From IMG/VR virus record IMGVR_UViG_3300031952_000052, positions 1 through 38,997 of that record: DNA of 38,997 nucleotides. One strand, written 5' to 3'. How positions within the stretch are numbered: position 1 is the first letter of the stretch; every line of letters starts with the position of its first letter. The DNA is from a virus. The notes under the pieces are model-generated. The model was given only the letters and a program-made list of their open reading frames with translations. It was not told the origin of the DNA and searched no databases. Shown here piece by piece: positions 17,347 to 36,823 of this stretch. The position numbers and the translations under genes are program-made.

Positions 17347-17778
17347 TCAGTAAACAGGAGCCGCCGGGGGAGGAAGCGAGCCCGGACGGTTGGGGTCGCT
17401 CGTCACCTGATCCGAAGGCTTCCCGTAGACATCCACGGGATCACGGGGGTGCGCCCACGCGCCGAACTGCCCGGGGGCCAGTTTGACCTGCCCACCCATG
17501 CGAGCGAGGGACGACATGACCGCCGGTCCATGAGTCGCCAGACCCGTCTGAGCCGACACGATGCGGGGTTGCATCTCGACGTTGCCGCGCCGGGCGAAAG
17601 CGCCCAGTTCATCGGCCTCGGCGGGAGGAACGCCCTGAACACCCGCGCCGGGGATGTTCGACGGAACCCGGGGCTGGGGCGTGGGGACGATCTGCTTCTC
17701 CACGTCACCGGTCCGGGCGCGACCAGACTTGCTGATGTTTCCGCTCTGCCCCGAGCGGGCGTAACCTGCGAGACTCAT
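17347..17778 (-). CDS. low-complexity virion-region protein, unknown
   Basis: 143 residues from ATG 17778 (AAGGAGTGTGGT upstream). An in-frame ATG 13 codons earlier lacks a ribosome site. The protein is rich in Gly, Pro and Ala with few hydrophobic residues ('VPTPQPRVPSNIPGAGVQGV', 'NRPGSLPPPAAPVY') and is probably largely unfolded. No family recognised. Confidence 0.65.
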   Translation of the reverse strand: MSLAGYARSGQSGNISKSGRARTGDVEKQIVPTPQPRVPSNIPGAGVQGVPPAEADELGAFARRGNVEMQPRIVSAQTGLATHGPAVMSSLARMGGQVKLAPGQFGAWAHPRDPVDVYGKPSDQVTSDPNRPGSLPPPAAPVY

Positions 17779-17813
17779 ACCACACTCCTTAAAAAGAGTG
17801 CAACCGATTGCAC

Positions 17814-19121
17814 TCAATCCTGAGTTTCCCCTGCCGGACTCGCCAACGGAGCAAGACGCATGACCAACGTAGTATCGCGGGTAGCCAACGGGCTGGAGAT
17901 CAGGGTTCCACCCTCCTTCTTGACCTCCTCGATCTCCACATCCAGCCCCCAGAGCCTCTGCTCAATGACCGTCTCCAGCTTGGAGCAGTCCTTGGGTATC
18001 TGACCCGGAGGAAAAGATTCCTTGGTCACCTTCACGGGGGCAATATACAGCTTTTTGACTTTCACCGCCGGGGGAACGAACGGGAGATCGAACTTCGACC
18101 CCATCACCCCCATGGGCATCCATTGAAGAGCCACCACCCGATCCCCAACCTTCAACTGCTTTGGCCGAACGAACGCAGGAGGCTCCTCGGGGAGATTACG
18201 CTCTAGCATCAATTTTCCGGTGTACTCCGTCACCGGGCGAGCGCCCTTGGTGATGGCGTCCTCCACGATGGACTTCGCCTTGTCTGTCATGGGCAGGCGA
18301 TCAAACCCGCTGTCCTTCAAGATCTTCTCGATGTCCACCGTCTGCTCAACGGCCTTCTCGGTCTTGGGCTTCTCGGGCTTGACTTCGCCCTTCGTCACGA
18401 TCCTGATGGAAATTTTTTCGGGCAGTTTGGCGGCCAATTCGCGGATACGCTCCTCGGGAAGCCCCGTCTCTACGATATCCATAAGACGACGAACCTCGCT
18501 TGGCTCCCGCTTCCTGCTGATCTCGATGGAAGAGCCATCCGCGTGTTCAAACAAATCAACGCGGGGGTTCTCCCGCCCGGACGACATCAACTTGAACCCA
18601 CTCATCGCTATACGGGGGATCAGATCCTTGAGCGCCGCGATGTTCTCACCGGCAGTCGCCTCCCTGCCGTAAGAACGCAACCCCGTGGACTCGGCGGGGG
18701 TCGTGTCCTTCATCTGGGCGATGCCCTTCACCGCCTCGGCCACATGATCGAGATGCTCCCCCGGATGACTCACGAACCTCTGGGGACCCGGGACGGCGGG
18801 CGGAGCATCCGGCTTGGCCGAAGGCTTCTCCCCCTTATCCGGTTCCTTCTTCGCCCGCTCGCGCTTCTCCCATGCCAGCCGTGAAGCCTCCGACCGAGCG
18901 GGATCCACGGATCCCCCGGCCTTCTCGACGGAGGCGCATTCAAAAGGGCGGTCAATCTCCTTCCGCGCCTTCTGAATCTCGTCCCACGTTGCCTCATTCC
19001 GCTTCTCGATCTCCTCTGCCTCGATGGGCGGCGTGGTCTTGGGGAACAGAATCCCCGGCTGGAACACTTTCCTCAACGTGGTTCGGAGGGACTTATTGAT
19101 AGCCGCAGATTTCTCGGCCAT
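17814..19121 (-). CDS. large basic virion-region protein, unknown
   Basis: 435 residues from ATG 19121, preceded by TCTGGAGGGACG; an in-frame ATG at 19157 is also possible. The N-terminal half is charged, with Lys/Glu-rich helices ('EEIEKRNEATWDEIQKARKE', 'AWEKRERAKKEPDKGEKPSA'). The C-terminal third is beta-rich with 'QLKVGDRVVALQWMPMGVMG'. No catalytic motif recognised. Gene order suggests a minor head protein. Confidence 0.6.
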   Translation of the reverse strand: MAEKSAAINKSLRTTLRKVFQPGILFPKTTPPIEAEEIEKRNEATWDEIQKARKEIDRPFECASVEKAGGSVDPARSEASRLAWEKRERAKKEPDKGEKPSAKPDAPPAVPGPQRFVSHPGEHLDHVAEAVKGIAQMKDTTPAESTGLRSYGREATAGENIAALKDLIPRIAMSGFKLMSSGRENPRVDLFEHADGSSIEISRKREPSEVRRLMDIVETGLPEERIRELAAKLPEKISIRIVTKGEVKPEKPKTEKAVEQTVDIEKILKDSGFDRLPMTDKAKSIVEDAITKGARPVTEYTGKLMLERNLPEEPPAFVRPKQLKVGDRVVALQWMPMGVMGSKFDLPFVPPAVKVKKLYIAPVKVTKESFPPGQIPKDCSKLETVIEQRLWGLDVEIEEVKKEGGTLISSPLATRDTTLVMRLAPLASPAGETQD

Positions 19122-19225
19122 CGTCCCTCCAGACCAAACATCTCTGCCTTCATTCATTGCCTTCCCCTTTCACCCTTGGCCTGCCCCTTGAGCCAGCCAT
19201 AACCCCCGCTGGTCCATGGATCTCC

Positions 19226-20182
19226 TTACTGACTTGCCTGCTCTTCCTGCTCCTTTACCGGAGCCGTCGCCTTCTCGGCGCGGCGATACACCCGCGCCAC
19301 AACCTCCCGCAACTGCTGGGCGAAGGGGTTGACCACCTCCGAAGAGGCATCCTTGGCCGTGACAGCCATCCCCGATCCGGAGATCAGCCGATGGGCATGG
19401 GCGTGACCGCCCACAGGAGCCTGATCCGGGGCGGTACGAGTGTCCAAGGATCCATCCGGGTTGATGGAAGCCTCGACCATGTGGGTGTGACCACCGTTGA
19501 AGCTGGTGTATCCCTTGACACGATATCCATTTGGGTCATTGTAAGAGGACAGGTAATACTCATGCTGGTGCCCATCGGAAATCTCGGTCAGCCCGTGGAA
19601 CACACCGGGGACATCCACGGGGGCTCCAGCCACCACCGCCGCAGGACCCTGCTGGGGGTTGACCATGCCGCCGGACGCCATGGAGATGGTCGAAATGCCG
19701 GGGGAACTCATGGACGCCTGACCGCCGCCGGTCGCCACCTGCTTCTCCGCGATCCCAATCACCCCGATAACTCCGGGGGCGATCCACACGGCCCGCACAG
19801 ACTCCGGAACCACCCGTTCGATCTCGACCGAGAAGGCGTGCTGATCCTCCTTGATCTCATCGGGAGCGCCCAGATCCCGGGCGGAAAACCAGTTCCGAAC
19901 CGCGTCCGTGGAGGCGAACTTCTTGGCCGAGAAATGGAGCCCGCCGATGACGATCTCCGGCAGTTCCACCTCTCGGTTGCACTCGTTCAACCCCCCATCG
20001 AACAATTGGGAGACGATCTCCCCTGCCCGGATGGTCTTCATGTGGGTGTCGCAGTACCGGCAGGCCATCTTCTGCCCGAGCATCTGGGGCCTCCAATCCA
20101 AGATGGACTGGACACAACACCCCTGCATCTGGCCGATGACCTCGATACCCAGACGCCCCTTCCAATCAGACTGCCCTGCCAT
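19226..20182 (-). CDS. Cys- and His-repeat protein of the virion region, unknown
   Basis: 318 residues; ATG 20182 follows GAAGGGAGCGGCC. The N-terminal part has Cys pairs ('GCC' at about 22, 'CRYC' at 41-44, 'NEC' near 68) suited to a metal site. The C-terminal half carries three GH-x-H elements, 'GHQHEY', 'GGHTHMVE' and 'GGHAHAHR', spaced about 35-50 residues. The same kind of repeat closes the HiPIP-like gene at 16753. A metal-binding structural role is inferred. The gap 19122-19225 holds only the ribosome site and no gene. Confidence 0.6.
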   Translation of the reverse strand: MAGQSDWKGRLGIEVIGQMQGCCVQSILDWRPQMLGQKMACRYCDTHMKTIRAGEIVSQLFDGGLNECNREVELPEIVIGGLHFSAKKFASTDAVRNWFSARDLGAPDEIKEDQHAFSVEIERVVPESVRAVWIAPGVIGVIGIAEKQVATGGGQASMSSPGISTISMASGGMVNPQQGPAAVVAGAPVDVPGVFHGLTEISDGHQHEYYLSSYNDPNGYRVKGYTSFNGGHTHMVEASINPDGSLDTRTAPDQAPVGGHAHAHRLISGSGMAVTAKDASSEVVNPFAQQLREVVARVYRRAEKATAPVKEQEEQASQ

Positions 20183-20194
20183 GGCCGCTCCCTT

Positions 20195-20938
20195 CTATTT
20201 GATCTGGGCGAGGATCGCATCGCCCTCTTCCCGTGAAAGAAGTTCGACTGCGACAGCATTGTTCACGATGTACGCCTTGATCCGCTTCAACTGCTCCTCG
20301 TCAAACTCACCGGCATCATCATCCATTGACACCGTTTCCTCAAGAGCAGAAAAAGCGTCGGAGATGAAATCTGGGAAACCAGCCTCCTTGTAGACCAAGA
20401 ACGCTGGCGGCTGGCTCTTCTTGACCTTGAGCCCGCCCCGCTTATCCGAAAGGATCCGGGCCATATCACGGAGAGCCCCGGCATTCGCCAGCCAAAATCG
20501 CTTCTGCTTCTCCCCCTCGGGTGTGCGGGCCTCCCCCATTGTCCGGTAACGGCTCATGTACGCCTTCGCCACACCTTCGGCCTGCCCGATTGCGGAGTTC
20601 AGGGTGCGCCACTTCTTCGACTCATTCCCCGAGAACTTGCTCTTCGGCGTATAATGAAGGAATCCATCCTTGTTGGGGGATGCCTTCTCGTACTCCTTGG
20701 CGCGAGCCTCCAGTTCCGGGGTGGCGAGAGCGGCGTTGGTATTGAACACCGCGTTGGACTCGTCGGTGAACTTCCCGAACTGGTCACGCCACGGATTCCC
20801 CGCCTTCTCGATCTCAGCCTGAGTAACCGCAATCTCCGTCGTCTTTTCGATCTCGCAGATGTCATCCAGCTTCTTCTCGACGGGACCGAGAGTGCCGATG
20901 AACTTAAGCCCGTGAAGAATGCTGTCCTGCGTATGCAT
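20195..20938 (-). CDS. protein of unknown function, first gene after terminase
   Basis: 247 residues, ATG 20938 behind CGGAGGATCCCTT. It is helical and charged, with 'AGNPWRDQFGKFTDES', a start motif often seen in phage minor head proteins, and 'RTPEGEKQKRFWLANAGALR'. The C-terminus is acidic ('DDDAGEFDEEQLKRIKAYI'). Not recognised with confidence. It is the first gene behind the promoter at 20967-20995. Confidence 0.65.
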   Translation of the reverse strand: MHTQDSILHGLKFIGTLGPVEKKLDDICEIEKTTEIAVTQAEIEKAGNPWRDQFGKFTDESNAVFNTNAALATPELEARAKEYEKASPNKDGFLHYTPKSKFSGNESKKWRTLNSAIGQAEGVAKAYMSRYRTMGEARTPEGEKQKRFWLANAGALRDMARILSDKRGGLKVKKSQPPAFLVYKEAGFPDFISDAFSALEETVSMDDDAGEFDEEQLKRIKAYIVNNAVAVELLSREEGDAILAQIK

Positions 20939-20966
20939 AAGGGATCCTCCGAGGCTTCAAAAAGTC

Positions 20967-20995
20967 ACTTTAGAGCGGTATGTCTCTTTCGTCAA
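20967..20995 (-). promoter_or_regulatory. sigma70-type promoter after the terminase gene
   Basis: On the minus strand TTGACG (20995-20990), 17-nt spacer, TAAAGT (20972-20967). It lies in the 68-nt gap between the terminase stop and the next start, 29 nt upstream of ATG 20938, and would drive the head gene cluster. Confidence 0.6.
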
Positions 20996-21006
20996 GCCCC
21001 GTTCGC

Positions 21007-22857
21007 CTATAGTACCACCACCTGCCCATCCGAAGACTTCCTCGGTCGAATCACGGGTATTTCGGTAATCGGTATATGCAAATCCGAACGAACCTGATTG
21101 GTGGGAGGAACCATTCCCTCAAACGACGGTCGGAGGCTCTTGGGAGGAGCGGAACCATGCTCCTCCTCCTCCGTCAACTCAAGGTCTTCCTTGAACCGGT
21201 CCTCAAACTGGAAGTGGAGCATGGCGCACAGAAGGGCATCCGGCCCATGGTCGTCCTTCTTGATCGGCTTTCCCATCTTGTCCTGCCGATAACGCTTGAG
21301 TTGCTCGATGAACCCGGTCAGGTGCGAGCGCATGAAAAATCGGTTTTTGTTGGTGAAGAACTTGATGACATTCCCGATCCCGTAGTCCTTCCACTTCTGG
21401 AAGTTGACCGGGCGGATGTCGAACCCCGCGTTGCTGACCTCCAAGTTGTTGTACTGTCCGCTGGCATCCGCATAAACGAAAAATTTATCCGGTCGAATCG
21501 GGTACTTCTCGGCCCAGTTGGTGATGATACGGATGGCCTCCGGGGTGAGTTTCCCGGTCATGAAGTCGGACTCAAGGATGGCAACGCACCGGGGGAAACT
21601 GGAGGGAGCCAGAACGGACCCCACCTTCTTGGGGCGGAGCATGGCCGCAAGCACCATCGCCGTCTGCCCCTGAAGCCCCCAATCGATCCCGATGGATATC
21701 TCAGCGATCTCCGCCTCTTCCCCCGGCCATTCCGGTGCAACCTCGGAGCGTTCGATCCACTCCACATCGTAGACCGGACGCATCCAGTTGGGGCGCTGGT
21801 TCTCGTACTCCACCGCGAAGACGTTGGTCCCCCGGTTCATCTTCTTGGCGATCAGGACGTTCTTCCGGGGGAGGAATCCATCAGAACACCGGGATTTTCC
21901 GTTGCATCCGGTAAACCGCTCCCCCTGACACACCCCGTCCTCGCCGTAGAGAGCCTGCTTCTCGGTAAGGTAGCATTGGGACTGGCAGAAGTGCAGGGCC
22001 TTGGGATCCTCCGTTGTGGCCTCGTCCAGCCCCTCGACGCATTGAACCATGCTGTCGTACACGTCCCATGTGTACCGCTTAAACCCGCGCTCATCCGCGA
22101 AATCCCAAATCTCTTGGAACAGCCCGATGGGATGATGGAACGTGGACAGGACCACCACCATGAAATTCGGCTCGGACATCGCGCCCTGCATGGCGGCGGA
22201 GATCAACTGGTCCGTGTTGTCCGCCGACTGGCAACTTTCATCGACAATAAAACCGGCGTTATGCTTGCCTCGCGCTTGTTTTTCAGATGCGCTGATGATC
22301 TTCAGCATCACCCCGTTCTTGAACCGGGTCTCCCCCATCAACGGATCTTCTTGCAGGACCGACCGGGCCAGATCAGGAAAGCAGTTCCAGAAGGACTTGG
22401 TGTACTGGTAAATCTGTTTAGCCTGCTCGGAACTGCCCGCCATCGCTGTGAAGGACATCTTGTGGTAAATGAGGGACATCCAGATCAGGATGGCCGAACA
22501 AAGGCTCCCTCCCGTTCCACGCCCCTTCCACAGGATGGCCTGATTTGCCCGCCGGTAGAACATGTCCGACAGAAAGTCCACCATCTGCGGATTCAACTTG
22601 ATGATGAGTTTGCGGGAATCCTTCAGGATCCATAATTGGTTCTGTATGAATGACCGCAGTTCCTTGTTCTGCCGGGCGCAGAATTGCTCGGGAGATTCGT
22701 CCGGCTGTTGGATCCGGAGAAGATCGGGGAGACCGTAGGTGCAGGGGTTCTCTGCGGAAATCCGCTTCTGGAGTTCCGAATCGATAACTGCCTTCCGGGT
22801 GAGCGCCTCGCGCATCTCCCGAACGGAGGATTCGGTGATTTTAATTTTCGCCGTCAA
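21007..22857 (-). CDS. terminase large subunit
   Basis: About 616 residues from a TTG at 22857 that overlaps the terS stop. An ATG at 22911 (18 residues more) and one at 22812 are alternatives, and none has a clear ribosome site. The ATPase part has a deviant Walker A 'WKGRGTGGS' (about residue 112), lacking the usual lysine before S/T, and Walker B 'FIVDES' (about 204-209). The nuclease part has 'GIDWG', 'YADASG' and 'DDHGPDAL', giving the acidic residues of the RNase H-like domain. It packages DNA into the prohead through the portal. A Cys-rich segment ('CQSQCYLTE', 'CNGKSRCSDG') between the domains may bind zinc. Confidence 0.92.
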   Translation of the reverse strand: MTAKIKITESSVREMREALTRKAVIDSELQKRISAENPCTYGLPDLLRIQQPDESPEQFCARQNKELRSFIQNQLWILKDSRKLIIKLNPQMVDFLSDMFYRRANQAILWKGRGTGGSLCSAILIWMSLIYHKMSFTAMAGSSEQAKQIYQYTKSFWNCFPDLARSVLQEDPLMGETRFKNGVMLKIISASEKQARGKHNAGFIVDESCQSADNTDQLISAAMQGAMSEPNFMVVVLSTFHHPIGLFQEIWDFADERGFKRYTWDVYDSMVQCVEGLDEATTEDPKALHFCQSQCYLTEKQALYGEDGVCQGERFTGCNGKSRCSDGFLPRKNVLIAKKMNRGTNVFAVEYENQRPNWMRPVYDVEWIERSEVAPEWPGEEAEIAEISIGIDWGLQGQTAMVLAAMLRPKKVGSVLAPSSFPRCVAILESDFMTGKLTPEAIRIITNWAEKYPIRPDKFFVYADASGQYNNLEVSNAGFDIRPVNFQKWKDYGIGNVIKFFTNKNRFFMRSHLTGFIEQLKRYRQDKMGKPIKKDDHGPDALLCAMLHFQFEDRFKEDLELTEEEEHGSAPPKSLRPSFEGMVPPTNQVRSDLHIPITEIPVIRPRKSSDGQVVVL

Positions 22858-23320
22858 GGCCCAACCGCCGCAACTTCCCGACCTCCTCCTCTCTCGCCTT
22901 GAGGAGTTCATCAGTCGTCATCTTGGAATAGTCCACCGACAGGTTCATATCGACCGCCGCCCGGTCGATCACGCCGGAATCCATGGCGATCTTGATCCTC
23001 TCCTTCATCGCGTTCAATGCCGTCATCAGGAAGTTGTTCTTGGCGTGGGGATTCTCCGTCTCGTTGAACTGGAACATGGCCTCTTTCTCAATCTCCGCGA
23101 TCTTCGCCATGATCTCACCGACCTCGGCAAAACGATCCGCGTTGACCGCCAGTTCCCGAAGATGGGTCTTGATCCACTTGGAGTCGTTGGTGATGGTGGT
23201 CCGGCTCACGCCCAACTGTCGGGAGATGGCGTCGTAGCTGATCCCCCGCATACTCAGGCGGAAGACCTCAAGCCGCCGCTCGTAAGTCTGGTGCGTCGGA
23301 GGTTTGCATGGAAGAGGCAT
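22841..23320 (-). CDS. terminase small subunit (HTH DNA-binding)
   Basis: 159 residues; ATG 23320 follows GGGGGTGACTT. The N-terminal helix-turn-helix 'RRLEVFRLSMRGISYDAISR' with 'LGVSRTTITNDSKWI' (about 15-50) would bind the packaging site. The central long helices ('VGEIMAKIAEIEKEAMFQF', 'FLMTALNAMKERIKIAMDSG') form the oligomer. The C-terminal acidic-basic tail likely contacts the large subunit. It directly precedes and overlaps the large subunit gene. Confidence 0.88.
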   Translation of the reverse strand: MPLPCKPPTHQTYERRLEVFRLSMRGISYDAISRQLGVSRTTITNDSKWIKTHLRELAVNADRFAEVGEIMAKIAEIEKEAMFQFNETENPHAKNNFLMTALNAMKERIKIAMDSGVIDRAAVDMNLSVDYSKMTTDELLKAREEEVGKLRRLGLDGEN

Positions 23321-23382
23321 AAGTCACCCCCAAAAATCAGCCTCATCCATTATGTATTCAAGGATCACAAAGGGAAGGGGAA

Positions 23383-23769
23383 TTATGCCTGATGCCCCTT
23401 CTTGGACAGGCTCTTGGCGATATCCTGCTTCACAAACTGAACCGCCATGCTGTTGGCGGTCCCGTCCGGATAGATCAGCCGGAAGGCAATCGCCCGGTCA
23501 ATCAATCTGCTCAACTTCGCCCGATCCACCTTCAGGAAATCAGCGAGCCGGGCGTGGTCGTACTTGACATTCTCCCACAGCCAGAACCATTGCTCGTTTT
23601 CCGCCTCGGGCACCGGAGTGCGGGGGGCCGAACAAGTCACGGGGATCATGGGCCAGATCACAATCAGGTTCCGAAGAACGGGGTCCCGCACCAGCGGATG
23701 GACGATCTCCGCCCGGTCCTTCTCCGCGCCCCTGAACCTCTGGATCACAGCCGCTATTTCTTCAGCCAT
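23383..23769 (-). CDS. probable winged-helix DNA-binding protein
   Basis: 128 residues from ATG 23769, inside the end of the methyltransferase gene. The C-terminal half 'HARLADFLKVDRAKLSRLID' with 'RAIAFRLIYPDG' reads as a helix-turn-helix with a wing. The N-terminal half has 'GAEKDRAEIVHPLVRDPVLR'. It may be a regulator or an additional packaging factor next to the terminase genes; the role is inferred from motif and position. The 62-nt gap before terS holds an AT-rich stretch but no clear promoter. Confidence 0.6.
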   Translation of the reverse strand: MAEEIAAVIQRFRGAEKDRAEIVHPLVRDPVLRNLIVIWPMIPVTCSAPRTPVPEAENEQWFWLWENVKYDHARLADFLKVDRAKLSRLIDRAIAFRLIYPDGTANSMAVQFVKQDIAKSLSKKGHQA

Positions 23770-24383
23770 CGGAGCCTCATCCCCATGTACATGTAGCACC
23801 ACTCCGCCCGATCCGGCAGGACGATCTTCTTGGCCTCAACCACCTCAAACCCGCAATCCACCACGTGAGACAGGCACGCCTGTGTCGCCATGTCCGAGAT
23901 TTTCTTGGAATGCCAAATCTTCCACTTCTCGGGGATGCCCAATTTCGCCCGAACCGACTTGGACATGAGCCGGACGGTCTTTATCGGCGCGTTGCAGTTG
24001 GTCAGGAAAACCGTCAGGTCTTCCCCCATGTAGTTCTCCAGCGCCGCGAAGTAAATCGGCCAAGGCTCTCCGTAGGGATCGATATCCAGAACGTCCGCCG
24101 ACCACTCCACATCGCGGAGCCACCTCTCGGCGGCGATCTTCACCACCCCGCTGTCCACCCGATTCTTGTCCAGCCCGGTGTACTGAATCGGATAATGCCT
24201 GCGCAGGATCCCCCAGATCGCCTGCTCCCCCGCGCAACAATCAATCACCCGGTACGTCTTGAGGGGATACTTGTCCAGAAAGTACCTGCGTATCTTGATC
24301 TTCTCGTCCAGATGCCGGTTATCCGTCTTGACCCACCCGTTGAGCGGGGCCATGCGAATATGGCTACCGACCATCCGCCCCAT
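23754..24383 (-). CDS. SAM-dependent methyltransferase-like protein
   Basis: 209 residues, ATG 24383 just after the ParB-like stop (AGGTGATGGA before it). The Rossmann motif I is 'YRVIDCCAGEQAIWGIL' (about 45-60), the acidic residue of motif II is in 'YTGLDKNRV', and motif IV-like 'LDIDPYGEPWPI' (about 98-109) resembles the DxDPFG loop of Trm1-type tRNA methyltransferases, though an NPPY-type DNA motif is absent. Substrate unknown (nucleic acid or small molecule). Confidence 0.75.
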   Translation of the reverse strand: MGRMVGSHIRMAPLNGWVKTDNRHLDEKIKIRRYFLDKYPLKTYRVIDCCAGEQAIWGILRRHYPIQYTGLDKNRVDSGVVKIAAERWLRDVEWSADVLDIDPYGEPWPIYFAALENYMGEDLTVFLTNCNAPIKTVRLMSKSVRAKLGIPEKWKIWHSKKISDMATQACLSHVVDCGFEVVEAKKIVLPDRAEWCYMYMGMRLRWLKK

Positions 24384-24387
24384 TCCA

Positions 24388-24951
24388 TCACCTGATCACA
24401 GAATCGTAGATCACACCCTCGGTCTTGCTGACCTGTTCCAAGAGGGAGGACACATCGGACCACTTCTCGGAGGGAACGGCCACCAGCGCCCAGACCATCT
24501 TCGGAGGAGGGCGCATATCAACCTCCTCGATGGTTGACTCCGCCTCGTCTTCCTTCCCCTTGGTCAGGGCCTCGACCAGCGTATCAGTCCGCAATCCATC
24601 GAGGATCTCCTTGTCGGTGATGCTATCGAGCAATTCCTTGAGATCCGGCGTCCACTCCCCCTGAATGTGGCCGTTGTTCAGGGCCACGCACAGGGCCTTC
24701 TCCTCGTCCTCATCCAAATCGACCAGCACCACCGGGACCTCCTCAATATCCATCCCCCGGAGGATGCTCAGGCGCTGGTTCCCGCCGACCACCCGGTTGT
24801 TCTTCCGGTTGACGACGATGTCCTGCACCATCCCGAACTTTTCGATGGAGGACTGCAACCCCTTGGCGGCGTCGTCGGAGATGCGCCGGGGGTTGTAGGG
24901 GGAGGGCACCAAGGAATCGAGGGGGAGGGTCGTCCGCTCAGTCTGTTTCAT
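24388..24951 (-). CDS. ParB/sulfiredoxin-fold protein
   Basis: 187 residues. The N-terminal 110 residues are a ParB-like domain: 'LPLDSLVPSPYNPRRI', 'IEKFGMVQDIVVN', 'RVVGGNQRLSILRGM', then the acidic 'VVLVDLDEDEEKALCVALNN'. Phage proteins of this type often stand next to DNA methyltransferases and terminases and may nick DNA or act as CTP switches. No second DNA-binding domain is visible, so a plasmid-type partition role is unlikely. It is followed at 5 nt by the methyltransferase. Confidence 0.85.
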   Translation of the reverse strand: MKQTERTTLPLDSLVPSPYNPRRISDDAAKGLQSSIEKFGMVQDIVVNRKNNRVVGGNQRLSILRGMDIEEVPVVLVDLDEDEEKALCVALNNGHIQGEWTPDLKELLDSITDKEILDGLRTDTLVEALTKGKEDEAESTIEEVDMRPPPKMVWALVAVPSEKWSDVSSLLEQVSKTEGVIYDSVIR

Positions 24952-24960
24952 GCCCAGATT

Positions 24961-25890
24961 TTACGTTTTATTCGGTATTCGTAAAGAGGAAACATGGCCC
25001 CGGTAATCATAACCCCACTTCAGGCACTCATCATACCCCGCCCCGAGGAGCGCCTTCCTGTACTCCTCCACCATCATCCGGTGATCGTCCGCCGGGATAA
25101 GGGCCACCAATTTGTCCGGAGGGTACTTCGCCGTGATCATGGGGCTGTGCGGAACAAAACCGCTGAAGTGGAAGAACTTCAGCCAAGAATCCCCGCACCG
25201 ATAGGCGGCCTGCTCCCTGCGGATGGGCCGGGAGGCCAGATTCCACCACGCCGCGTTGCACCCCGGGTCACGAAGAACATGAACACCATCGAACATCGCC
25301 GGGATCGGGTCCGCCCAGAATTGATCCACAAACAGAGATGGAAGTCTCAGATAGCCCCACTTGAACGTCTTGTGCCCAAGCCACCGAAGAAGGGAGTCCG
25401 CCTCCATGCCCCGGCGAAGCCCCAAGAATCCCAGATTATAGGCCCCCGTGGTGATGACATGCCGCTCCACGTCGTCAGCCAGATCCCCCGGAGGCAGGGG
25501 CTGGAGGAGATGCGGGGTCAGCACGATCTTGTGCGCCCCCAGCGCCTCCCACACAACATCCGTTCGATGAAAGAAATAAATGTCCGGGTCGTAGTAAACC
25601 AGCCGGTCAATCCCGAGAGTGAACAGGTGCTGGAGCAGGAAAGGCTTCACGGCGGTGGAGAATTCCATGATGTTGTATCGAGCCGCCATGTCCTGCGTGC
25701 CGGGAGTCCGGAGATCCCTCACGTCCACGGAAGTGAACTTCTCCTTGAGAAGGTCGAAACGTCCGGAGATGTCGTCAACGAAGAGGACGTAGACCTTCCC
25801 GCCGGGATGATGGCGGAGGTAAGAGGAGGTCAGCGCCCGAGCTTGAGCAAGAAAGTTGCGCGAGCAGATTGTGCAGATGGCGTCGATCAT
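24961..25890 (-). CDS. GT-A type glycosyltransferase (GT8-like)
   Basis: 309 residues from ATG 25890, which overlaps the previous stop (ATGA). The N-terminus 'CTICSRNFLAQARALTSSYL' is typical of GT8-like enzymes, and the DxD metal and sugar-nucleotide motif is 'LVYYDPDIYFF'. 'TGAYNLGFLGLRRG' and the histidine in 'FFHFSGFVPHSP' complete the family pattern. It would move a sugar from a nucleotide-sugar to an unknown acceptor: modified phage DNA, a virion protein or host surface glycan. There is no signal peptide, so it acts in the cytoplasm. Confidence 0.85.
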   Translation of the reverse strand: MIDAICTICSRNFLAQARALTSSYLRHHPGGKVYVLFVDDISGRFDLLKEKFTSVDVRDLRTPGTQDMAARYNIMEFSTAVKPFLLQHLFTLGIDRLVYYDPDIYFFHRTDVVWEALGAHKIVLTPHLLQPLPPGDLADDVERHVITTGAYNLGFLGLRRGMEADSLLRWLGHKTFKWGYLRLPSLFVDQFWADPIPAMFDGVHVLRDPGCNAAWWNLASRPIRREQAAYRCGDSWLKFFHFSGFVPHSPMITAKYPPDKLVALIPADDHRMMVEEYRKALLGAGYDECLKWGYDYRGHVSSLRIPNKT

Positions 25891-26111
25891 TTCTTGGCCC
25901 GAGCCTTCTTCCAATCCACGTTCCGATGACTCTCAAACCACGCCACCACACCCGCCGGGGCGTGCAGAGCGCGGAGTTCAAAAATGGCCGCATCCGTGGA
26001 CATGCCCCCGGTGCGGACCTTCTCTCTCAACCCCAATCCCATTGGGCACGGGACGACCTTCGTGTTGCGCGGGGACTCCTTGTCCTTCTCCACGCCGTCC
26101 GCCTGCGTCAT
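25887..26111 (-). CDS. small protein, unknown
   Basis: 74 residues from ATG 26111, behind GGAGGATGTTCG and overlapping the upstream zinc-ribbon stop. It is hydrophilic with 'ELRALHAPAGVVAWFESHRN' and ends in 'KKARAKK'. The stop overlaps the glycosyltransferase start. Not recognised. Confidence 0.6.
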   Translation of the reverse strand: MTQADGVEKDKESPRNTKVVPCPMGLGLREKVRTGGMSTDAAIFELRALHAPAGVVAWFESHRNVDWKKARAKK

Positions 26112-26275
26112 CGAACATCCTCCGTTTTGAGAGCCCGCTTCTTGACAACGATCTCCATGTGCCTGCAAGTCTGGCAGATCCACGCCTCCCGGTCTAGGTC
26201 TGTGCGACTCTCACGGATGACGGCCAGCACCGTCACCCGCCCGCCGCACTTTGAGCATCGTTTCCATGCGCCCAT
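26108..26275 (-). CDS. small zinc-ribbon protein
   Basis: 55 residues, ATG 26275 preceded by GGCGGTGAGTC. It has two Cys pairs, 'RCSKCGG' near the start and 'WICQTCRH' near residue 37, which form a zinc ribbon. The start is 3 nt after the previous stop, and the stop overlaps the next start (ATGA). Probably a nucleic-acid or protein-binding factor; function unknown. Confidence 0.65.
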   Translation of the reverse strand: MGAWKRCSKCGGRVTVLAVIRESRTDLDREAWICQTCRHMEIVVKKRALKTEDVR

Positions 26276-26278
26276 GAC

Positions 26279-26740
26279 TCACCGCCGCCCATTTCGGGCA
26301 GTAGACAGCAGGTTTTTCGCACAGGCGAACTGGTCCCCACTCCACGTCCGGTTCTGCCCCCAGTATTCGACAAGGTTCCACGCGAACTTCTTCTCCCCGT
26401 TCTTCAGCCCGGTCAGGGCCACCGTCAGGAGGTCCGCAACCACCGCCACGATGTCCTCGTTCTCATCCACAAGGACCCCGTTCTCCACCCGGGAACGGAA
26501 CCGTGCCTCGATGTCCTTCGGCAAGGGGAACCCGTGGTCAATGTGCTGTTTGACCTGAATCATGAACTCGTCCTCGACCACCGGCTCATCCATCAACGTG
26601 AGTGCAACCGCCGCCCCGGCCTCCCGCTCAAGGACGGACCCGTACTTCTGCGCGGCCTGATCATGATTCTGCGCGATCCGGTCGGCAACCGCCGCCTCGC
26701 GCTTGGCCTTCTTCACCCGTGGATCATGTCTTGGGTCCAT
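26279..26740 (-). CDS. hypothetical protein
   Basis: 153 residues from ATG 26740 (GGGGGATGAACTG upstream; TGATG overlap with the previous stop). Helical and acidic, with 'ADRIAQNHDQAAQKYGSVLE' and 'DENEDIVAVVADLLTVALTG'. No family recognised. Confidence 0.65.
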   Translation of the reverse strand: MDPRHDPRVKKAKREAAVADRIAQNHDQAAQKYGSVLEREAGAAVALTLMDEPVVEDEFMIQVKQHIDHGFPLPKDIEARFRSRVENGVLVDENEDIVAVVADLLTVALTGLKNGEKKFAWNLVEYWGQNRTWSGDQFACAKNLLSTARNGRR

Positions 26741-26979
26741 CAGTTCATCCCCCACAGGTAACTGCACAAGTCCGCCTCCGTCCTCGGGGTACTCGGCCCC
26801 GGGGCCTTTGGGATCCCCACCAGCACGATGCCCCGGCGAACCCACCCCGCGATGGACTCCCCGGGATCCTTGGGAACCCGGTCAAGAATCCTCTGCCCCA
26901 CCTCGACAGCCGTGTCGGAGGTCGTGGGAACATCAAGGACCTCGGCCACCTCCAGAAGCAGTTCGTTCATCCGGGCCAT
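26740..26979 (-). CDS. hypothetical protein
   Basis: 79 residues from ATG 26979 behind GGGAGGGAACC; in-frame codons further up lack a ribosome site. Helical with 'ELLLEVAEVLDVPTTSDTAV'. Not recognised. First gene of an operon reading down to the glycosyltransferase. Confidence 0.65.
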   Translation of the reverse strand: MARMNELLLEVAEVLDVPTTSDTAVEVGQRILDRVPKDPGESIAGWVRRGIVLVGIPKAPGPSTPRTEADLCSYLWGMN

Positions 26980-27007
26980 GGTTCCCTCCCTTTCTGACCC
27001 TAATAAC

Positions 27008-27036
27008 ATTATGCTCTTTTTGTCCACCGAATACAA
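27008..27036 (-). promoter_or_regulatory. possible promoter of the 26979-24961 operon
   Basis: On the minus strand TTGTAT (27036-27031), 17-nt spacer, CATAAT (27013-27008). Both boxes deviate from consensus. It stands after a hairpin and 29 nt before ATG 26979. Confidence 0.4.
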
Positions 27037-27037
27037 G

Positions 27038-27069
27038 AACAGGTTGCGATCCTCTCGACCGCACCTGTT
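27038..27069 (-). terminator. possible intrinsic terminator
   Basis: Minus-strand stem: GCGCACCTGTT-type arm pairs with AACAGGT(T)GCG with one bulged base, loop of about 11 nt, followed by TTCTTGTATT. It lies just after the stop at 27075 and could end the transcript of the 27730-27075 genes. Confidence 0.4.
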
Positions 27070-27074
27070 TCGGA

Positions 27075-27215
27075 TCAGCACCCTTCCGCCGGGGGCCAGA
27101 ATTTACGCCCCGCCCGGGGACGACGGCCCATGCTCTTCTCGGAGTTCCCAACCCGGGCGTCCGTACACATCGAGCAACGGACCTTCCGCCGTGGGCGCTT
27201 ACGCCGTGGTCCCAT
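27075..27215 (-). CDS. small basic protein, unknown
   Basis: 46 residues, ATG 27215 with TAGGAGGGGCAGGG directly before it, overlapping the stop of the upstream gene. It is Arg/Lys-rich ('MGPRRKRPRRKVRCSMC', 'MGRRPRAGRKFWPPAEGC') with one CxxC pair. The strong ribosome site argues for a real gene; the basic character suggests nucleic acid binding. Another long frame over the same bases (to 27935) is a shadow. Confidence 0.55.
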   Translation of the reverse strand: MGPRRKRPRRKVRCSMCTDARVGNSEKSMGRRPRAGRKFWPPAEGC

Positions 27216-27226
27216 CCCTGCCCCTC

Positions 27227-27730
27227 CTACGCGACCTTCCGCACGTTGACATAGGCGGTCCAGTAGACGTTCCCGGCGGCGTCCTTCACGCCGACCCGGG
27301 TTCCGAACTTTCCCTCCCCGATCCAGAAGACCTTCCCGGTGGTCCCGATGGGCACCTTGCGGCCCCGAGCCACCCGCACCGCGTCCCCCTTGTGGATCCG
27401 GGCGGCTTCCGCCGCCACTTCCCGGGCCTCCACCGCCGCCTCCCGCGCCTCTTCCGCCGCCCGCTCCTCCGCCGCCTTGGCCGCTTCCAGCGCGTTGAAG
27501 GCGGCGACCGCCTCGGGGTGCGCGTCGATCTCGGCGTAGGCGATCTCGTCGGTCAGCCCGTCGTGGTAGACCGAGAGGGCTTCGGACCCGTAGGACCCGT
27601 TGGCGTTGAGGATCACCGCGTACTTGGTGTTGTCCCCCATCCCCGGCACGGAGAAGTGGAAGGCCCGACCGAACCCGACCACCCGCCCGACGTGGCTGAT
27701 CGCGCCAGACCGCAGGTTCTTCACCGCCAT
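27227..27730 (-). CDS. coiled-coil protein with a C-terminal KOW-like domain
   Basis: 167 residues, ATG 27730 behind AGGGAGAAAA. The N-terminus (1-55) is beta-rich. The middle (about 70-110) is a long Ala/Glu helix ('AVAAFNALEAAKAAEERAAE'). The end (about 112-167) reads 'IHKGDAVRVARGRKVPIGTT' and 'GKVFWIG', like KOW or SH3-like folds. Function unknown. It is transcribed from the strong promoter at 27781-27809. Confidence 0.7.
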   Translation of the reverse strand: MAVKNLRSGAISHVGRVVGFGRAFHFSVPGMGDNTKYAVILNANGSYGSEALSVYHDGLTDEIAYAEIDAHPEAVAAFNALEAAKAAEERAAEEAREAAVEAREVAAEAARIHKGDAVRVARGRKVPIGTTGKVFWIGEGKFGTRVGVKDAAGNVYWTAYVNVRKVA

Positions 27731-27780
27731 TTTTCTCCCTCCGACCGTTTCCCGTTTCCCGCTCCCCTCTCACCACAAGA

Positions 27781-27809
27781 ATCATACCCCATATGCTCGT
27801 GTTTGTCAA
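27781..27809 (-). promoter_or_regulatory. strong sigma70-type promoter
   Basis: Minus strand TTGACA (27809-27804), 17-nt spacer containing CATATGGGG, TATGAT (27786-27781). It is 51 nt before ATG 27730 and one of three near-identical promoters in the accessory region. Confidence 0.8.
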
Positions 27810-27828
27810 CCCTAATTCTGAAAAAAAA

Positions 27829-28128
27829 TTATCGCCTCCGCTTCTTCCGGGTCTCGGGAAAGGGCCACCTCCCCACCTTCTTCGCCAATGCAAGTGCGGC
27901 CCGCGCCTGATGCGCCCATCGGTCCGCATGGTCACCCGGGAGCAAATCCTCCGGGCTGATTAGATCCGTCAACCCAAAGCAATTAAGGGCCTCCTTCAGC
28001 GCCTTCCGCATGGCAATGAAGGCTTCCATGATCTTCGGCATCAACTCGACGCACTCCTCGCACGTGGTGGGGGCCGGACGAAAACTAATGCACCGCCCGC
28101 AGACACGGCACTTGGTCGGCTCGGGCAT
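27829..28128 (-). CDS. small zinc-binding protein
   Basis: 99 residues from ATG 28128 (GGAGGCCAAGTG before it; TGATG overlap). Four cysteines 'KCRVCGRCISF' and 'TTCEECVEL' form a zinc knuckle at 7-30. A helix 'IMEAFIAMRKALKEALNCFG' follows. The stop is followed at once by a run of eight T on the minus strand. Function unknown. Confidence 0.7.
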   Translation of the reverse strand: MPEPTKCRVCGRCISFRPAPTTCEECVELMPKIMEAFIAMRKALKEALNCFGLTDLISPEDLLPGDHADRWAHQARAALALAKKVGRWPFPETRKKRRR

Positions 28129-28418
28129 CACTTGGCCTCCTTCCCGCCGCGAGGAGCGGCTTGTGCCTCGCAAATACGACACAGAACTGCCCCCTGATTG
28201 AGGGACCGCATCATCCGGCACCGTGCTGGATTCTCGCAGTCATGATCCAGAAACGGCTCCAACGCCTCCCGCAACTGCCCGATCACCCTGTCCGCCTCGT
28301 CTGCGTGGTCGAGGAGGGCGGTGATCGTTGCGCGGAGTTGCTTGTCCGAAATGATGGAGCTCGTTCGGACCACTTCACCCATCAGCGTCCGCGTTTCCTT
28401 CGTCAGTAGATTGCTCAC
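28128..28418 (-). CDS. hypothetical protein with Cys motif
   Basis: 96 residues from a GTG at 28418, with GGAGGTGAAGCC before it and a GTGA overlap with the previous stop. The N-terminal part is helical ('ISDKQLRATITALLDHADEA'). The end has Cys residues 'DCENPARC' and 'VLCRIC', which may bind zinc. Not recognised. Confidence 0.65.
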   Translation of the reverse strand: MSNLLTKETRTLMGEVVRTSSIISDKQLRATITALLDHADEADRVIGQLREALEPFLDHDCENPARCRMMRSLNQGAVLCRICEAQAAPRGGKEAK

Positions 28419-28765
28419 GGCTTCACCTCCTCGCCAAGAGCGGCGTTGTACCGTTCACAACGCTCATGGCAACCAGAGCAAACCGCGCATCCCCTCAACG
28501 CCTCCCTCGCGGCCAGCAGATCGCGGCAGAGGGCGGGGACGTCGGTGCGGGAGTGAGAGATGAAGACCCAGTCCTCTGCCCTCGCCTCCGTCTTGTCTTC
28601 GTCTTCTTCCTCAAACGGTTGGCAGACCCACCGAAAGGTCTTGTTCTTTCCGACCATTATGTCCACAGATATCCCGCCGGTCTTGCCCGGATGCCCCACA
28701 TCCCACTTCCCCGGGGTCGCGGCCTCGGCTCGGGCGAGGATGGCGCGGATGTCGGCGTTGGTCAT
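28415..28765 (-). CDS. Ea22-like phage protein
   Basis: 116 residues from ATG 28765, overlapping the previous stop. 'RAILARAEAATPGKWDVGHP' and 'DWVFISHSRTDVPALCRDLL' are the hallmark of a widespread family of phage accessory proteins (ead/Ea22-like) of unknown role. 'CAVCSGCHERC' near the end adds a probable zinc site. Confidence 0.7.
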   Translation of the reverse strand: MTNADIRAILARAEAATPGKWDVGHPGKTGGISVDIMVGKNKTFRWVCQPFEEEDEDKTEARAEDWVFISHSRTDVPALCRDLLAAREALRGCAVCSGCHERCERYNAALGEEVKP

Positions 28766-28959
28766 GGCTTGATCCTGCATCCGTGCTTGTGCCGACCATA
28801 TTTCGACAACGCCTCCCGCAACCGGGTGACGAGAGGCATCGCGTACTCCGCATATTCCGTGAGATCCCGTAGCAGGATGTTATCGCCCACCAAGTAGTCA
28901 TCGTCGGTGAATGAATCCACCAGAACCCGCGCCTTGCAAAGATTGTCCGGCGTCAACAT
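28762..28959 (-). CDS. small protein, unknown
   Basis: 65 residues, ATG 28959 behind GGAGGACTGACCC, part of which encodes the end of ClpS. Acidic, with 'VLVDSFTDDDYLVGDNILLR' and a basic end 'GRHKHGCRIKP'. The start lies 3 nt after the ClpS stop, so the two are translated together. Not recognised. Confidence 0.65.
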   Translation of the reverse strand: MLTPDNLCKARVLVDSFTDDDYLVGDNILLRDLTEYAEYAMPLVTRLREALSKYGRHKHGCRIKP

Positions 28960-28962
28960 GGG

Positions 28963-29268
28963 TCAGTCCTCCGGTTCATAGGTGAGCGACAGGGGAAAGC
29001 CCCGCGCACCCGACAAGCTCTTGCATTGCTCGACGTGGAACTCGGCCCGCTCAAGGGTCTCCACCGTCACAAGGGCGATCTCGGTCTTGTGCGCCTCCAT
29101 CATGATCTGCACGGCCTTTTCGTACTGTAGGTTGAAAACCTTGAGAAGCACCGACACCACGAAATCCATCGGGGTGAACGGGTCATTGTGGATCAGGACC
29201 TTGTAAAGCGGGGCGTGCCGCTCCTTGGGCTTCGTCACCGGGTCCTGTACGACAGGTTTCTTGTCCAC
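28963..29268 (-). CDS. clpS: ClpS, adaptor of the ClpAP protease (N-degron adaptor)
   Basis: 101 residues from GTG 29268 (TAGGAGCGGAC before it), close to the about 106 residues of E. coli ClpS. A longer frame up to 29586 only runs over the upstream gene. The ClpS core is intact: 'LYKVLIHNDPFTPMDFVVSV' (21-40), 'AVQIMMEAHKTE', and the final 'GFPLSLTYEPE'. The N-degron pocket residues Asn28, Asp29, Thr32, Met34, Met56 and His60 match E. coli N34, D35, T38, M40, M62 and H66; D36 is replaced by Pro, and the usual Gly of the H-x-x-G turn is absent. The N-terminal extension that enters ClpA is short (about 20 residues). It would bind host ClpA in the cytoplasm and load N-degron substrates, or block other substrates. 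Confidence 0.9.
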   Translation of the reverse strand: MDKKPVVQDPVTKPKERHAPLYKVLIHNDPFTPMDFVVSVLLKVFNLQYEKAVQIMMEAHKTEIALVTVETLERAEFHVEQCKSLSGARGFPLSLTYEPED

Positions 29269-29276
29269 GTCCGCTC

Positions 29277-29480
29277 CTAGATCCGGATCCTCGGCCCACC
29301 GGGGAACAGGGGGACCCTGCGCTTCTCCATCATGATCTCGGTTTCGCAATCCCGAATCAATCGGAGAAAGTCCCGGGCCTGTTCCTCTGTGGCCGAATCC
29401 AGCATTTTCTCCAACTCCCCGTAACGCCGACCGGTCAGCCGCTGGGCCGCATACAAGGCCACACGCGCAGTTCCACTCAC
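29277..29480 (-). CDS. small protein upstream of clpS, unknown
   Basis: 67 residues from GTG 29480, sharing bases with the stop of the secreted protein gene (GTGA). Helical with 'LTGRRYGELEKMLDSATEEQ' and 'FLRLIRDCETEIMME'. Its TAG stop is part of the clpS ribosome site, so clpS is coupled to it. Not recognised. Confidence 0.65.
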   Translation of the reverse strand: MSGTARVALYAAQRLTGRRYGELEKMLDSATEEQARDFLRLIRDCETEIMMEKRRVPLFPGGPRIRI

Positions 29481-30817: not shown

Positions 30818-31162
30818 TTAGCCCTCCGAGTCCCGCGTCATCTTGTCATCCTTCCGCTGGTCGATCATCCGGTCGGCCTCGTAAGCCCGCGCCTCCTCCC
30901 GCGCCTCCAGCCGGGCGAGGGCCGCATCGTTCTGGTCGTCCTCGATCATCTCGCGGCACTTCTCGCAGGCGTCCTCGGGGTCCATCCCGTAGTCGCACCC
31001 CTCGGGGCAGGTCACCTCTCCAGCGCCCTCGCAGACCGGGCACTTGCTGGCGCGGTGAATCGGCCCCTCCTCGATGGATCCGCCCACGATCCTCTCCAAC
31101 TCCCCGGCCCCGTCGCACACCCCACAGTCGTGCATGACCGGGCGGTCCGCGTTGCTCGTCAT
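30818..31162 (-). CDS. DnaJ-type zinc-finger protein
   Basis: 114 residues from ATG 31162 (GGGAGGGAAAAGAA); the ORF upstream is not coding. 'CGVCDGAGE', 'CPVCEGAGE', 'CPEGCDYG' and 'ACEKCREM' are four Cys pairs of the CxxCxGxG type seen in the DnaJ central domain. No J domain is present. It is first in the operon behind the promoter at 31190-31218. A chaperone-like or protein-binding role is inferred. Confidence 0.75.
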   Translation of the reverse strand: MTSNADRPVMHDCGVCDGAGELERIVGGSIEEGPIHRASKCPVCEGAGEVTCPEGCDYGMDPEDACEKCREMIEDDQNDAALARLEAREEARAYEADRMIDQRKDDKMTRDSEG

Positions 31163-31189
31163 TTCTTTTCCCTCCCTCACACCGTCAAC

Positions 31190-31218
31190 ATCATACCCCG
31201 TATGGTTGCTTTTGTCAA
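31190..31218 (-). promoter_or_regulatory. strong sigma70-type promoter
   Basis: Minus strand TTGACA (31218-31213), 17-nt spacer with CATACGGGG, TATGAT (31195-31190), 28 nt before ATG 31162. It drives the operon that includes clpS (31162 down to 27829), since no strong terminator is seen in between. Confidence 0.8.
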
Positions 31219-31233
31219 CTACTAATTTCAGAA

Positions 31234-31983
31234 TCATGCGCTCTTCTGCGACTCCCGCCACGCCTTGAGCGCGGCCACCTGATCCTCGGCCATCTTCTGC
31301 GCGGCCTCCAGATCCGGCTTCCGCTCCCCGAGGACGTAGGGCGAGTAGGTCTTCCGGTCCCATACGTCGCGGTCAGACCGCTTCCAGTATTCGATGAACT
31401 TGGTCCACTCCTTGTCAGCCCACGTCGGGGTCCAGCAGGAGGACCGGCAGATGAACACTCCCGTGTAACACTCGGTCTTGTCCGGCATCCCGTACCGGAT
31501 ACTGGTGGGCCGCTCCGTAGTGGGGAACGACTCGGGATGGTCCTTGCGCCACTCGGGGTAGACCACGTGGTACTCCTTGAGCCGCCGCTCTTGGAGCAAA
31601 TGCTTCGCCCAGTTCCCGCAATCCAGTTTGCTGTTGTCCTTCCTGTACCCGAAGTCATGGTGGGAGTCGTAGTTCGTGATCGAGAGATTGGACATCGCCC
31701 GCTGGTTGGCGGTCACCCACTCGTACATCGCCTTGTGACTCTCGCAGATCGCCAAGAACGCCGTGGTGCCACCGCACGCTTTCTGCCAGAACCCGCGCAA
31801 TTTCTTGGGGTCGGGCCGGACGGCGTCCGTGGCGAGGGCGTGTTTCCCGAACATGTCGTGGTTCCCCGCCCGGATGGACCAGACGGCCTCGTACAGGAAG
31901 GCGGACTCCTCATGGTGCCCCCAATCGTAGCCGTCGATGTTGGGGAAAAAGAAATCCCAATCCACGGACAGGATCTTCATCAT
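31234..31983 (-). CDS. arginase/deacetylase-like protein (UPF0489-like)
   Basis: 249 residues; ATG 31983 behind CGGAGGAGCA. It starts 'MKILSVDWDFFFPNIDG' and has 'ITNYDSHHDFGY' with a metal-type D-x-H-H-D cluster (about 104-112), 'DCGNWAKHLL', and 'FICRSSCWTPTWADKEW'. This pattern resembles the UPF0489 group of arginase-fold proteins. The substrate is unknown; a metal-dependent hydrolase is the best guess. No signal peptide. The promoter at 31190-31218 lies just after its stop. Confidence 0.6.
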   Translation of the reverse strand: MMKILSVDWDFFFPNIDGYDWGHHEESAFLYEAVWSIRAGNHDMFGKHALATDAVRPDPKKLRGFWQKACGGTTAFLAICESHKAMYEWVTANQRAMSNLSITNYDSHHDFGYRKDNSKLDCGNWAKHLLQERRLKEYHVVYPEWRKDHPESFPTTERPTSIRYGMPDKTECYTGVFICRSSCWTPTWADKEWTKFIEYWKRSDRDVWDRKTYSPYVLGERKPDLEAAQKMAEDQVAALKAWRESQKSA

Positions 31984-33184: not shown

Positions 33185-33667
33185 TTACCCCACGCCACCT
33201 CCCCCCGGAGTATCCGGAGCATCGGGGTCCAGATTTGAATCGTTCCGCCAACACAGGCAGGGCTCCTTCTTGTGCCCGTGGCACCGCTCGCAGGTCTGGT
33301 CCTGATACCGGCCAGATCCATCACACAACCCGCAGGACCGGATATGGCTCCCCCAGCATTTCGGGCACGCCGCGCTCTGCTTGTTGGACACCCCGAAGCA
33401 CCGATGGCAGAGAGCCGCCGGTTGCTCCGGGCGATCCCCGCCGTAAACCAGCGGGCGCTCGTACCGGTACATGCTATCCCGGTGCCCGACCTTCCCGCAC
33501 GAATAGCACCACCAATGAAGCCGATCCTCCGGGGCCTGCTTGACCTCGCCGCTACACAATCCGCAGACCAGAACAACGGGAGATTTTCCTCCCGAGCAAT
33601 CGGGGCACGAAAATGTGAACCCGATGCAGACCGGACATCCCTGACAAGCTCCCCGCTCCTTGCACAC
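33185..33667 (-). CDS. Cys-rich multi-zinc-finger protein
   Basis: 160 residues from GTG 33667 (AGAGAGGGGAAACC before it). The frame is open up to ATG 33778, but there is no ribosome site there. At least seven Cys pairs are visible, including 'CQGCPVC', 'CPDCSGG', 'VCGLCSGE', 'CYSCGKVG', 'CHRCFG', 'CPKCWG', 'CGLCDGSGR' and 'CERCHGHKKEPCLC', several of CxxCxG type as in DnaJ. It probably binds several zinc ions; function unknown. Confidence 0.65.
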   Translation of the reverse strand: MCKERGACQGCPVCIGFTFSCPDCSGGKSPVVLVCGLCSGEVKQAPEDRLHWWCYSCGKVGHRDSMYRYERPLVYGGDRPEQPAALCHRCFGVSNKQSAACPKCWGSHIRSCGLCDGSGRYQDQTCERCHGHKKEPCLCWRNDSNLDPDAPDTPGGGGVG

Positions 33668-33784
33668 GGTTTCCCCTCTCTGGGCGTAGAACAGCCCAAA
33701 AACCCTTCCGGGCAAACTGGCTAAAATGCCGCCCCTCGTTTCTTTCTCGGGGTAGCCAGACGAATGGGAGCCACCCATTCATCG

Positions 33785-36445: not shown

Positions 36446-36459
36446 CGTATTTTGCAGAG

Positions 36460-36823
36460 TGGAGGTGTGGGGAATCGAACCCCAGTCCCAAAATTCGTCA
36501 ACAGGATCCGTATCCGCTCACAGTCGCTGGGCCAGCAATAACTTTAAGGTCCGCTCACGGGTTGGCCGACAGCGACCTGCCGTGTCGTGAGCCCAGACCA
36601 GTCTCATTTTTCTCGCCGTCAAGGAGACTACCTCGTGACAGCCAGCCGATCATTAACGTCCCGCCCCCGTTATCGGCGTCCTCGGGGTGGACGGGCCGCT
36701 CTAGGCGGCCTTGAGCATGGGCTTGGCACCCAAATTTGGTCGGCTTGTTTTACGAGGGCCAACCGACCAACCCTCGGAGCGCGAACTCCTGCCTCGGAAT
36801 CCGGTCGAAACCAGTTCACCCCC
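36460..36823 (-). ncRNA. ssrA: tmRNA (transfer-messenger RNA)
   Basis: About 364 nt. The 5' end GGGGGTG (36823-36817) pairs with CACCTCC (36467-36461) as a 7-bp acceptor stem with one G-U. The D-like loop has the tmRNA signature GAACTGGTTTCGACC, and the T arm is TGGGG TTCGATT CCCCA (5 pairs). H2 is GGATTCCG with CGGATCC (one bulge). PK1 is clear: CGAGGG/CCCTCG with an 8-bp second stem TTGGTCGG/CCGACCAA. H5, a GGCCGC/GCGGCC hairpin, carries the tag stop UAG in its loop. CCA is not encoded (CTC follows), so the host CCA enzyme must add it. tmRNA with SmpB frees stalled ribosomes and tags the nascent protein. No smpB gene is visible here, so host SmpB would be used. No convincing promoter of its own was seen. 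Confidence 0.95.
36701..36727 (-). other. tmRNA tag reading frame
   Basis: The frame set by the UAG in the H5 loop ends GCC AAG CCC ATG CTC AAG GCC GCC TAG, giving AKPMLKAA if the resume codon is GCC at 36727, 8 nt after PK1. The Ala start codon and the distance from PK1 fit known tmRNAs. The ending Lys-Ala-Ala differs from the usual Leu-Ala-Ala. An earlier resume point in the same frame would lengthen the tag but not change its end. A GCC at 36744 in another frame gives no stop in H5 and is unlikely. Confidence 0.7.

Follow-up and report, generated by a model that had tools for sequence, protein, structure and literature searches.

A short minus-strand reading frame in a stretch of viral DNA raises the question of whether a phage encodes its own ClpS, and of what such an adaptor would do during infection. 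The stretch, referred to here as the window, is the whole of the 38,997 nucleotides of IMG/VR record IMGVR_UViG_3300031952_000052 that we analysed. The window is tailed phage DNA, encoding a tail sheath, a portal, a terminase, a capsid protein and a T4-type baseplate protein by Pfam and PHROG comparison, and the reading frame is a genuine ClpS homologue of that phage. The same DNA carries a tmRNA gene that the initial annotation overlooked, and we favor, with moderate confidence, the view that the protein is a true adaptor of a tailed phage which together with the phage tmRNA would reset host proteolysis.

The clpS frame runs in the ORF listing of the window from a GTG at 29268 to a stop at 28963, and the gene and its immediate surroundings are as follows.

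28963 to 29268, minus strand: clpS, encoding a ClpS-family Clp protease adaptor, complete, 101 aa, GTG start (PF02617, PDB phmmer, AlphaFold2/Foldseek)
29274 to 29279, minus strand: ribosome-binding site TAGGAG, 5 nt ahead of the clpS GTG (read from the sequence)
29277 to 29480, minus strand: 67-aa gene upstream of clpS, in the same operon (ORF)
28762 to 28959, minus strand: 65-aa gene downstream of clpS, its ATG 3 nt past the clpS stop (ORF)

The ribosome-binding site shares bases with the TAG stop of the upstream gene, and neither the 67-aa nor the 65-aa product has a Pfam or PHROG match. The initial annotation had regarded the start, ribosome site and size as fitting, and the GTG, the TAGGAG motif and the 101-residue length bear this out, as does the operon position. 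A longer frame starting at 29586 was rejected, because it would run into two genes upstream and because the GTG is served by a ribosome site of its own. Also on the minus strand are two CxxC-repeat proteins (30818-31363 and 33185-33778), the first with a weak match, below cut-off, to the DnaJ zinc domain.

Both family and fold are established computationally. The product matches PF02617 with 84.2 bits (E 5e-24; cut-off 23) over profile positions 2-80 of 80, and PHROG 27368, which represents jumbo-phage ClpS, at 9e-17; a phmmer search of the PDB returned 12 ClpS-type sequences, with Agrobacterium tumefaciens ClpS2 the best at 9e-15. The NCBIfam ClpS equivalog models match as well (best 81 bits) but under their own strict cut-offs, as expected of a divergent member. 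A set of 102 window and locus sequences yielded an AlphaFold2 model with an overall pLDDT of 88, rising to about 96 in the core, and with predicted elements E21-27, H34-45, H49-62, E64-71, H72-89 and E94-99, preceded by an N-terminal extension of about 20 residues that is predicted to be disordered (pLDDT 53-61). The first claim had been made to hinge on structural comparison with ClpS, and the best solved match of the model in Foldseek is indeed Caulobacter ClpS (3gq0), at an rmsd of 0.6 Å and a target TM of 0.97. The Pfam, PDB and Foldseek matches are far beyond chance and rule out a fortuitous or mis-framed ORF, and together with the phage structural genes they uphold the proposal that the genome of a phage encodes a complete ClpS homologue. 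Compared with the ClpS proteins of E. coli and Caulobacter, the window protein shares the fold (rmsd 0.6-0.8 Å), the size, the disordered N-terminal extension, the Asn/Asp/Thr/Met/His pocket and the contact residues E79 and E82; it differs in having only 35-41% identity, in having no clpA neighbour, and in its single junction proline (Ala19-Pro20), where E. coli ClpS has Pro24-Pro25.

The lineage of the protein is unlike that of most phage ClpS. In a tree of 161 ClpS sequences it groups with cyanobacterial ClpS1 (SH-aLRT 98), and in a more careful 59-row tree the same grouping has 98 bootstrap and 76 SH-aLRT support, with the main viral clade at 97/93; forcing the window sequence into the viral clade of the latter tree costs 20 log-likelihood units (p-AU 0.064), values that are to be read in the light of the short domain and of a sampling that leaves out Planctomycetota and several other phyla. 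The phylogeny with bacterial and phage ClpS that was suggested at the outset thus places the window copy beside cyanobacterial ClpS1 and outside the main viral clade, and clpS was likely acquired separately from most phage ClpS. The resemblance to cyanobacterial ClpS1, a ClpC partner, extends to as much as 51% identity over residues 15-84, the MMEAH and AEF motifs and an Ala at position 65, and Prochlorococcus ClpS shares the NDP motif; the differences are a longer C-terminal end, GFPLSLTYEPE, as in the ClpS of Proteobacteria and Bacteroidota, and a Thr at position 32 in place of the Asn of the sampled cyanobacteria. Searches of Chloroflexota and Cyanobacteriota found no donor, though the protein falls near cyanobacterial ClpS1, and among the IMG/VR matches listed no relative is more than 44% identical across the greater part of the protein.

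Phage-encoded ClpS is itself a known kind of gene, and the window copy is a separate lineage of it with unusual residues and a tmRNA partner. The suggestion that phages rarely carry Clp adaptors does not hold in general: with the better query, ClpS is found in only 31 of 50,697 isolated phage records, nearly all of them jumbo phages, yet IMG/VR contains at least 556 stretches with a ClpS gene, and jumbo-phage cases have been published (PMC7824862, PMC6102473). As in the jumbo phages PA5oct, Atu_ph07, Phosso, SCTP-2 and the Rak2-like phages (PHROG 27368), the window clpS is phage-encoded and lacks an adjacent ClpA gene, and Phosso also has a tmRNA, albeit a permuted one. Against these likenesses, the window protein lies outside the jumbo-phage clade, with 21-38% identity where aligned; its gene has no Hsp20 neighbour, and the accompanying tmRNA is of the one-piece type. 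A ClpA-like ORF flanks 73 of 80 cellular clpS loci but only one of 85 main-set viral loci (L102), so the viral adaptor presumably works with a host unfoldase. An Hsp20 gene lies beside the viral clpS, usually preceding it, at 62 of the 85 loci and a DnaK gene at 35, neighbours that point to protein quality control. One further locus (L088, CAKLQH020000043.1), labelled as Acinetobacter 'phage MD-2021a', is a bacterial clpS-clpA operon that looks like host DNA and was left out. Downstream of viral clpS at L100-L179 we also observe genes resembling heme oxygenase and bilin reductase, identified by Pfam on representatives.

About 7 kb from clpS, among tightly packed genes on the same strand, lies the tmRNA gene of the window.

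36457 to 36823, minus strand: ssrA, one-piece tmRNA, full-length (Rfam RF00023: 126.5 bits against a gathering score of 47, covering model positions 1-374)
36701 to 36727, minus strand: tmRNA tag frame GCC AAG CCC ATG CTC AAG GCC GCC TAG, encoding AKPMLKAA (Rfam alignment and sequence; resume codon inferred)

The acceptor stem (GGGGGUG / CACCUCC) retains the alanine identity pair G3-U70, and the stop of the tag frame falls in the loop of the next hairpin. With the resume codon as inferred, the predicted tag ends in LKAA, whereas the bacterial tags compared usually end in ALAA or AVAA. ARAGORN did not report a tmRNA at 36457-36823, and minimum free energy folding was uninformative (z -1.65). 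Across 50,697 phage records only a 36-nt T-arm stretch matches the window tmRNA, and no SmpB was found. Complete ssrA genes are known in the genomes of the mycobacteriophage Bxz1 group, phage G and methylophage Melnitz (PMC4131195, PMC9004378), from which the window gene differs in accompanying clpS and in being a one-piece gene with a short tag ending in LKAA. Among sequenced phages 2.3% have a tmRNA, the known carriers including marine methylophages and pelagimyophages (PMC9004378).

ClpS-bearing viruses carry tmRNA genes far more often than other viruses do. As controls we took 43 random viral records, each 18 kb or longer and picked by an arbitrary 14-mer, and find tmRNA genes in 29 of 48 ClpS-bearing records but in two of the 43 random ones (Fisher p 7e-9, for records that are not independent, many ClpS carriers being related large myoviruses, and for two sets that differ in length); below 125 kb the counts are 17 of 33 and one of 40. 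ClpS itself occurs in a single random record, and that record also has a tmRNA. The 29 comprise 28 permuted tmRNAs (RF04321, over cut-off) and the one-piece gene of the window. Records with the permuted two-piece form include L182, L185, L187, L189 and L306-L321, and the tag in L307 reads AKADTIDFSAMSFTGNSVSGKSKVALAA. In other viral records, RF00023 matches scoring 20-35 bits coincide in some cases with permuted tmRNAs; those about 75 nt long are tRNA-like and were left uncounted. The association is partly one of shared ancestry, with most ClpS-bearing viral records falling in one viral ClpS clade. The pair has nonetheless probably arisen more than once, given that the window ClpS does not belong to the main viral clade and that its tmRNA companion is of the one-piece, not the permuted, kind. 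Published work covers phage ClpS and phage tmRNA separately; we found no link between the two in the literature searched, and ClpS is unmentioned in the text of the phage tmRNA paper PMC9004378.

The properties of E. coli ClpS suggest how the two genes might act together. That protein docks on the ClpA N-domain and puts its N-terminal extension into the pore, slowing degradation of ssrA substrates and delivering N-degron substrates, and so switching ClpAP (PMC9663308, PMC12493166). By analogy we infer docking, delivery and a functional link with tmRNA for the phage protein: it would dock on the N-domain of a host ClpC or ClpA unfoldase, its N-terminal tail would thread into the pore, and the docked adaptor would slow that protease's breakdown of ssrA-tagged substrates and bring hydrophobic N-degron proteins to it. 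The ClpS1-like interface of the window protein hints at ClpC as the partner. In an infected cell the phage tmRNA would release ribosomes trapped on broken mRNAs and tag their products, and the phage ClpS would turn ClpAP or ClpCP from these tagged products, which would be left to ClpXP, to N-degron and misfolded proteins. Because E. coli ClpS switches ClpAP off ssrA-tagged proteins, a phage with both genes would hold a tag-making RNA and an adaptor that alters how the tag is read. Phage steering of host Clp through this adaptor is plausible, and viruses may take over the tagging and Clp quality-control pathway as a set. More speculatively, and tentatively at best, phages may have repeatedly built a two-part module of their own tmRNA and their own ClpS that controls both how stalled ribosomes are rescued and what becomes of their products, with ClpS (and Hsp20/DnaK in many lineages) diverting ClpA/ClpC from ssrA-tagged proteins and its pocket tuned to phage-specific N-termini. 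The question of why phages carry tmRNAs and Clp adaptors, an old one, becomes directly testable here.

Another account is that clpS and ssrA are independent former host genes, each kept for its own reason, and that their co-occurrence here is incidental. This is conceivable, if not what we would expect: they lie about 7 kb apart and form no single visible operon, the window clpS lacks the Hsp20 and DnaK neighbours of other viral clpS genes, and the general association is in part a matter of lineage, but the excess of tmRNA genes in ClpS-bearing records, set against the low rate in sequenced phages (PMC9004378), and the apparently repeated origin of the pair speak for a connection.

The adaptor reading has also to be weighed against the residues of the pocket and of the ClpA interface. 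By alignment with E. coli ClpS, the pocket residues N28 (E. coli 34), D29 (35), T32 (38), the gatekeeper M34 (40), V37 (43), M56 (62), H60 (66) and L93 (99) are kept, among them the six that the initial annotation had named (Asn28, Asp29, Thr32, Met34, Met56 and His60, equivalent to E. coli N34, D35, T38, M40, M62 and H66). Four positions of the pocket and interface depart from E. coli: P30 (D36), A59 (V65), E63 (G69) and H78 (K84). The replacement of a second Asp by Pro30 had been recognized correctly; a glycine had also been thought lost directly after His60, and the glycine that is replaced (Glu63, equivalent to G69) lies three residues further on. In Caulobacter ClpS the alpha-amino group is held by N47, D49 and H79 (PMC12493166), and Pro30 stands at the position of D49, equivalent to E. 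coli D36, so that one of three alpha-amino contacts is absent in the window protein. Two of the three residues of E. coli ClpS that contact ClpA, E79, E82 and K84 (PMC12493166), are kept as E73 and E76, and the third, the Lys84 that salt-bridges ClpA, is replaced by His78, a point against the adaptor reading; cyanobacterial ClpS1 has Tyr at this position and Chloroflexota have Arg.

The main rival of the adaptor reading is that the protein is a decoy which docks on ClpA or ClpC but, with Pro30 and Glu63 in or near its pocket, delivers few or no N-degron proteins, so displacing host ClpS, blocking turnover of both ssrA-tagged and N-degron substrates and shielding phage proteins. The lost alpha-amino contact and the retained ClpA contacts are consistent with this, and no equivalent of Glu63 is seen among 192 further ClpS sequences, of which 98 are bacterial and 94 viral rows. 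Pro30 and Glu63, as placed by the alignment, could indeed weaken N-degron binding. The D36 contact is however common rather than universal in the family: proline replaces it in a single one of the same bacterial and viral rows, Prochlorococcus L061, and is seen also in Prochlorococcus ClpS L066 and in Mycobacterium smegmatis ClpS (WDDPV). The latter has been solved with Trp-Ser and Phe-Ala dipeptides bound, so that proline alone does not abolish binding, and the window protein retains His60 together with the remaining hydrophobic pocket residues. We regard a decoy as rather unlikely, and continue to favor a delivering adaptor. Whichever applies, the odd pocket residues, which may alter the choice of N-terminal residues as first suggested, make the protein a naturally occurring variant with which to study the N-termini that ClpS will accept. 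We also note that the pocket residue Met62 (E. coli numbering) is a Thr in 47 of 94 viral ClpS and in none of the 98 bacterial rows, a substitution that may have shifted N-degron specificity throughout a phage clade.

A second contig, 3300035701_000057 (L096), bears on the integrity of the window. Over 11010-28162 it agrees with the window at 99.96% identity, and it contributes a further 19.1 kb of tail and baseplate genes, which brings the phage to 58 kb or more; joining the two gave no end overlap that would make the phage circular. This contig diverges abruptly from 28163 on and stops before clpS, and beyond that point it has the two gene families of the window (28128-28418 and 28415-28780) in rearranged form (window 28128-28780 against L096 1-735), which favors mosaicism of the early region over a chimera. 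That clpS and ssrA came from a bacterial contig, through misassembly or as host DNA, is very improbable. In its favor are the end of the near-identical contig just short of clpS, the frequent use of ssrA as an integration site by prophages, and the absence of clear phage or bacterial matches for the genes that lie to the right of the tmRNA; against it, the same gene families recur past the break in mosaic form, the genes flanking clpS and ssrA are all on one strand with tight packing and steady composition, no clpA adjoins clpS, and no integrase is seen in the annotated parts. Searches for the host with the terminase, capsid, sheath and early genes returned only distant or conspecific phages. 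In the late region, beside a HAD-like protein, the minus-strand frame at 15461-16369 has a weak PI3/PI4-kinase-like match (0.00076, below cut-off), and a homologue with 64% identity is present in L097.
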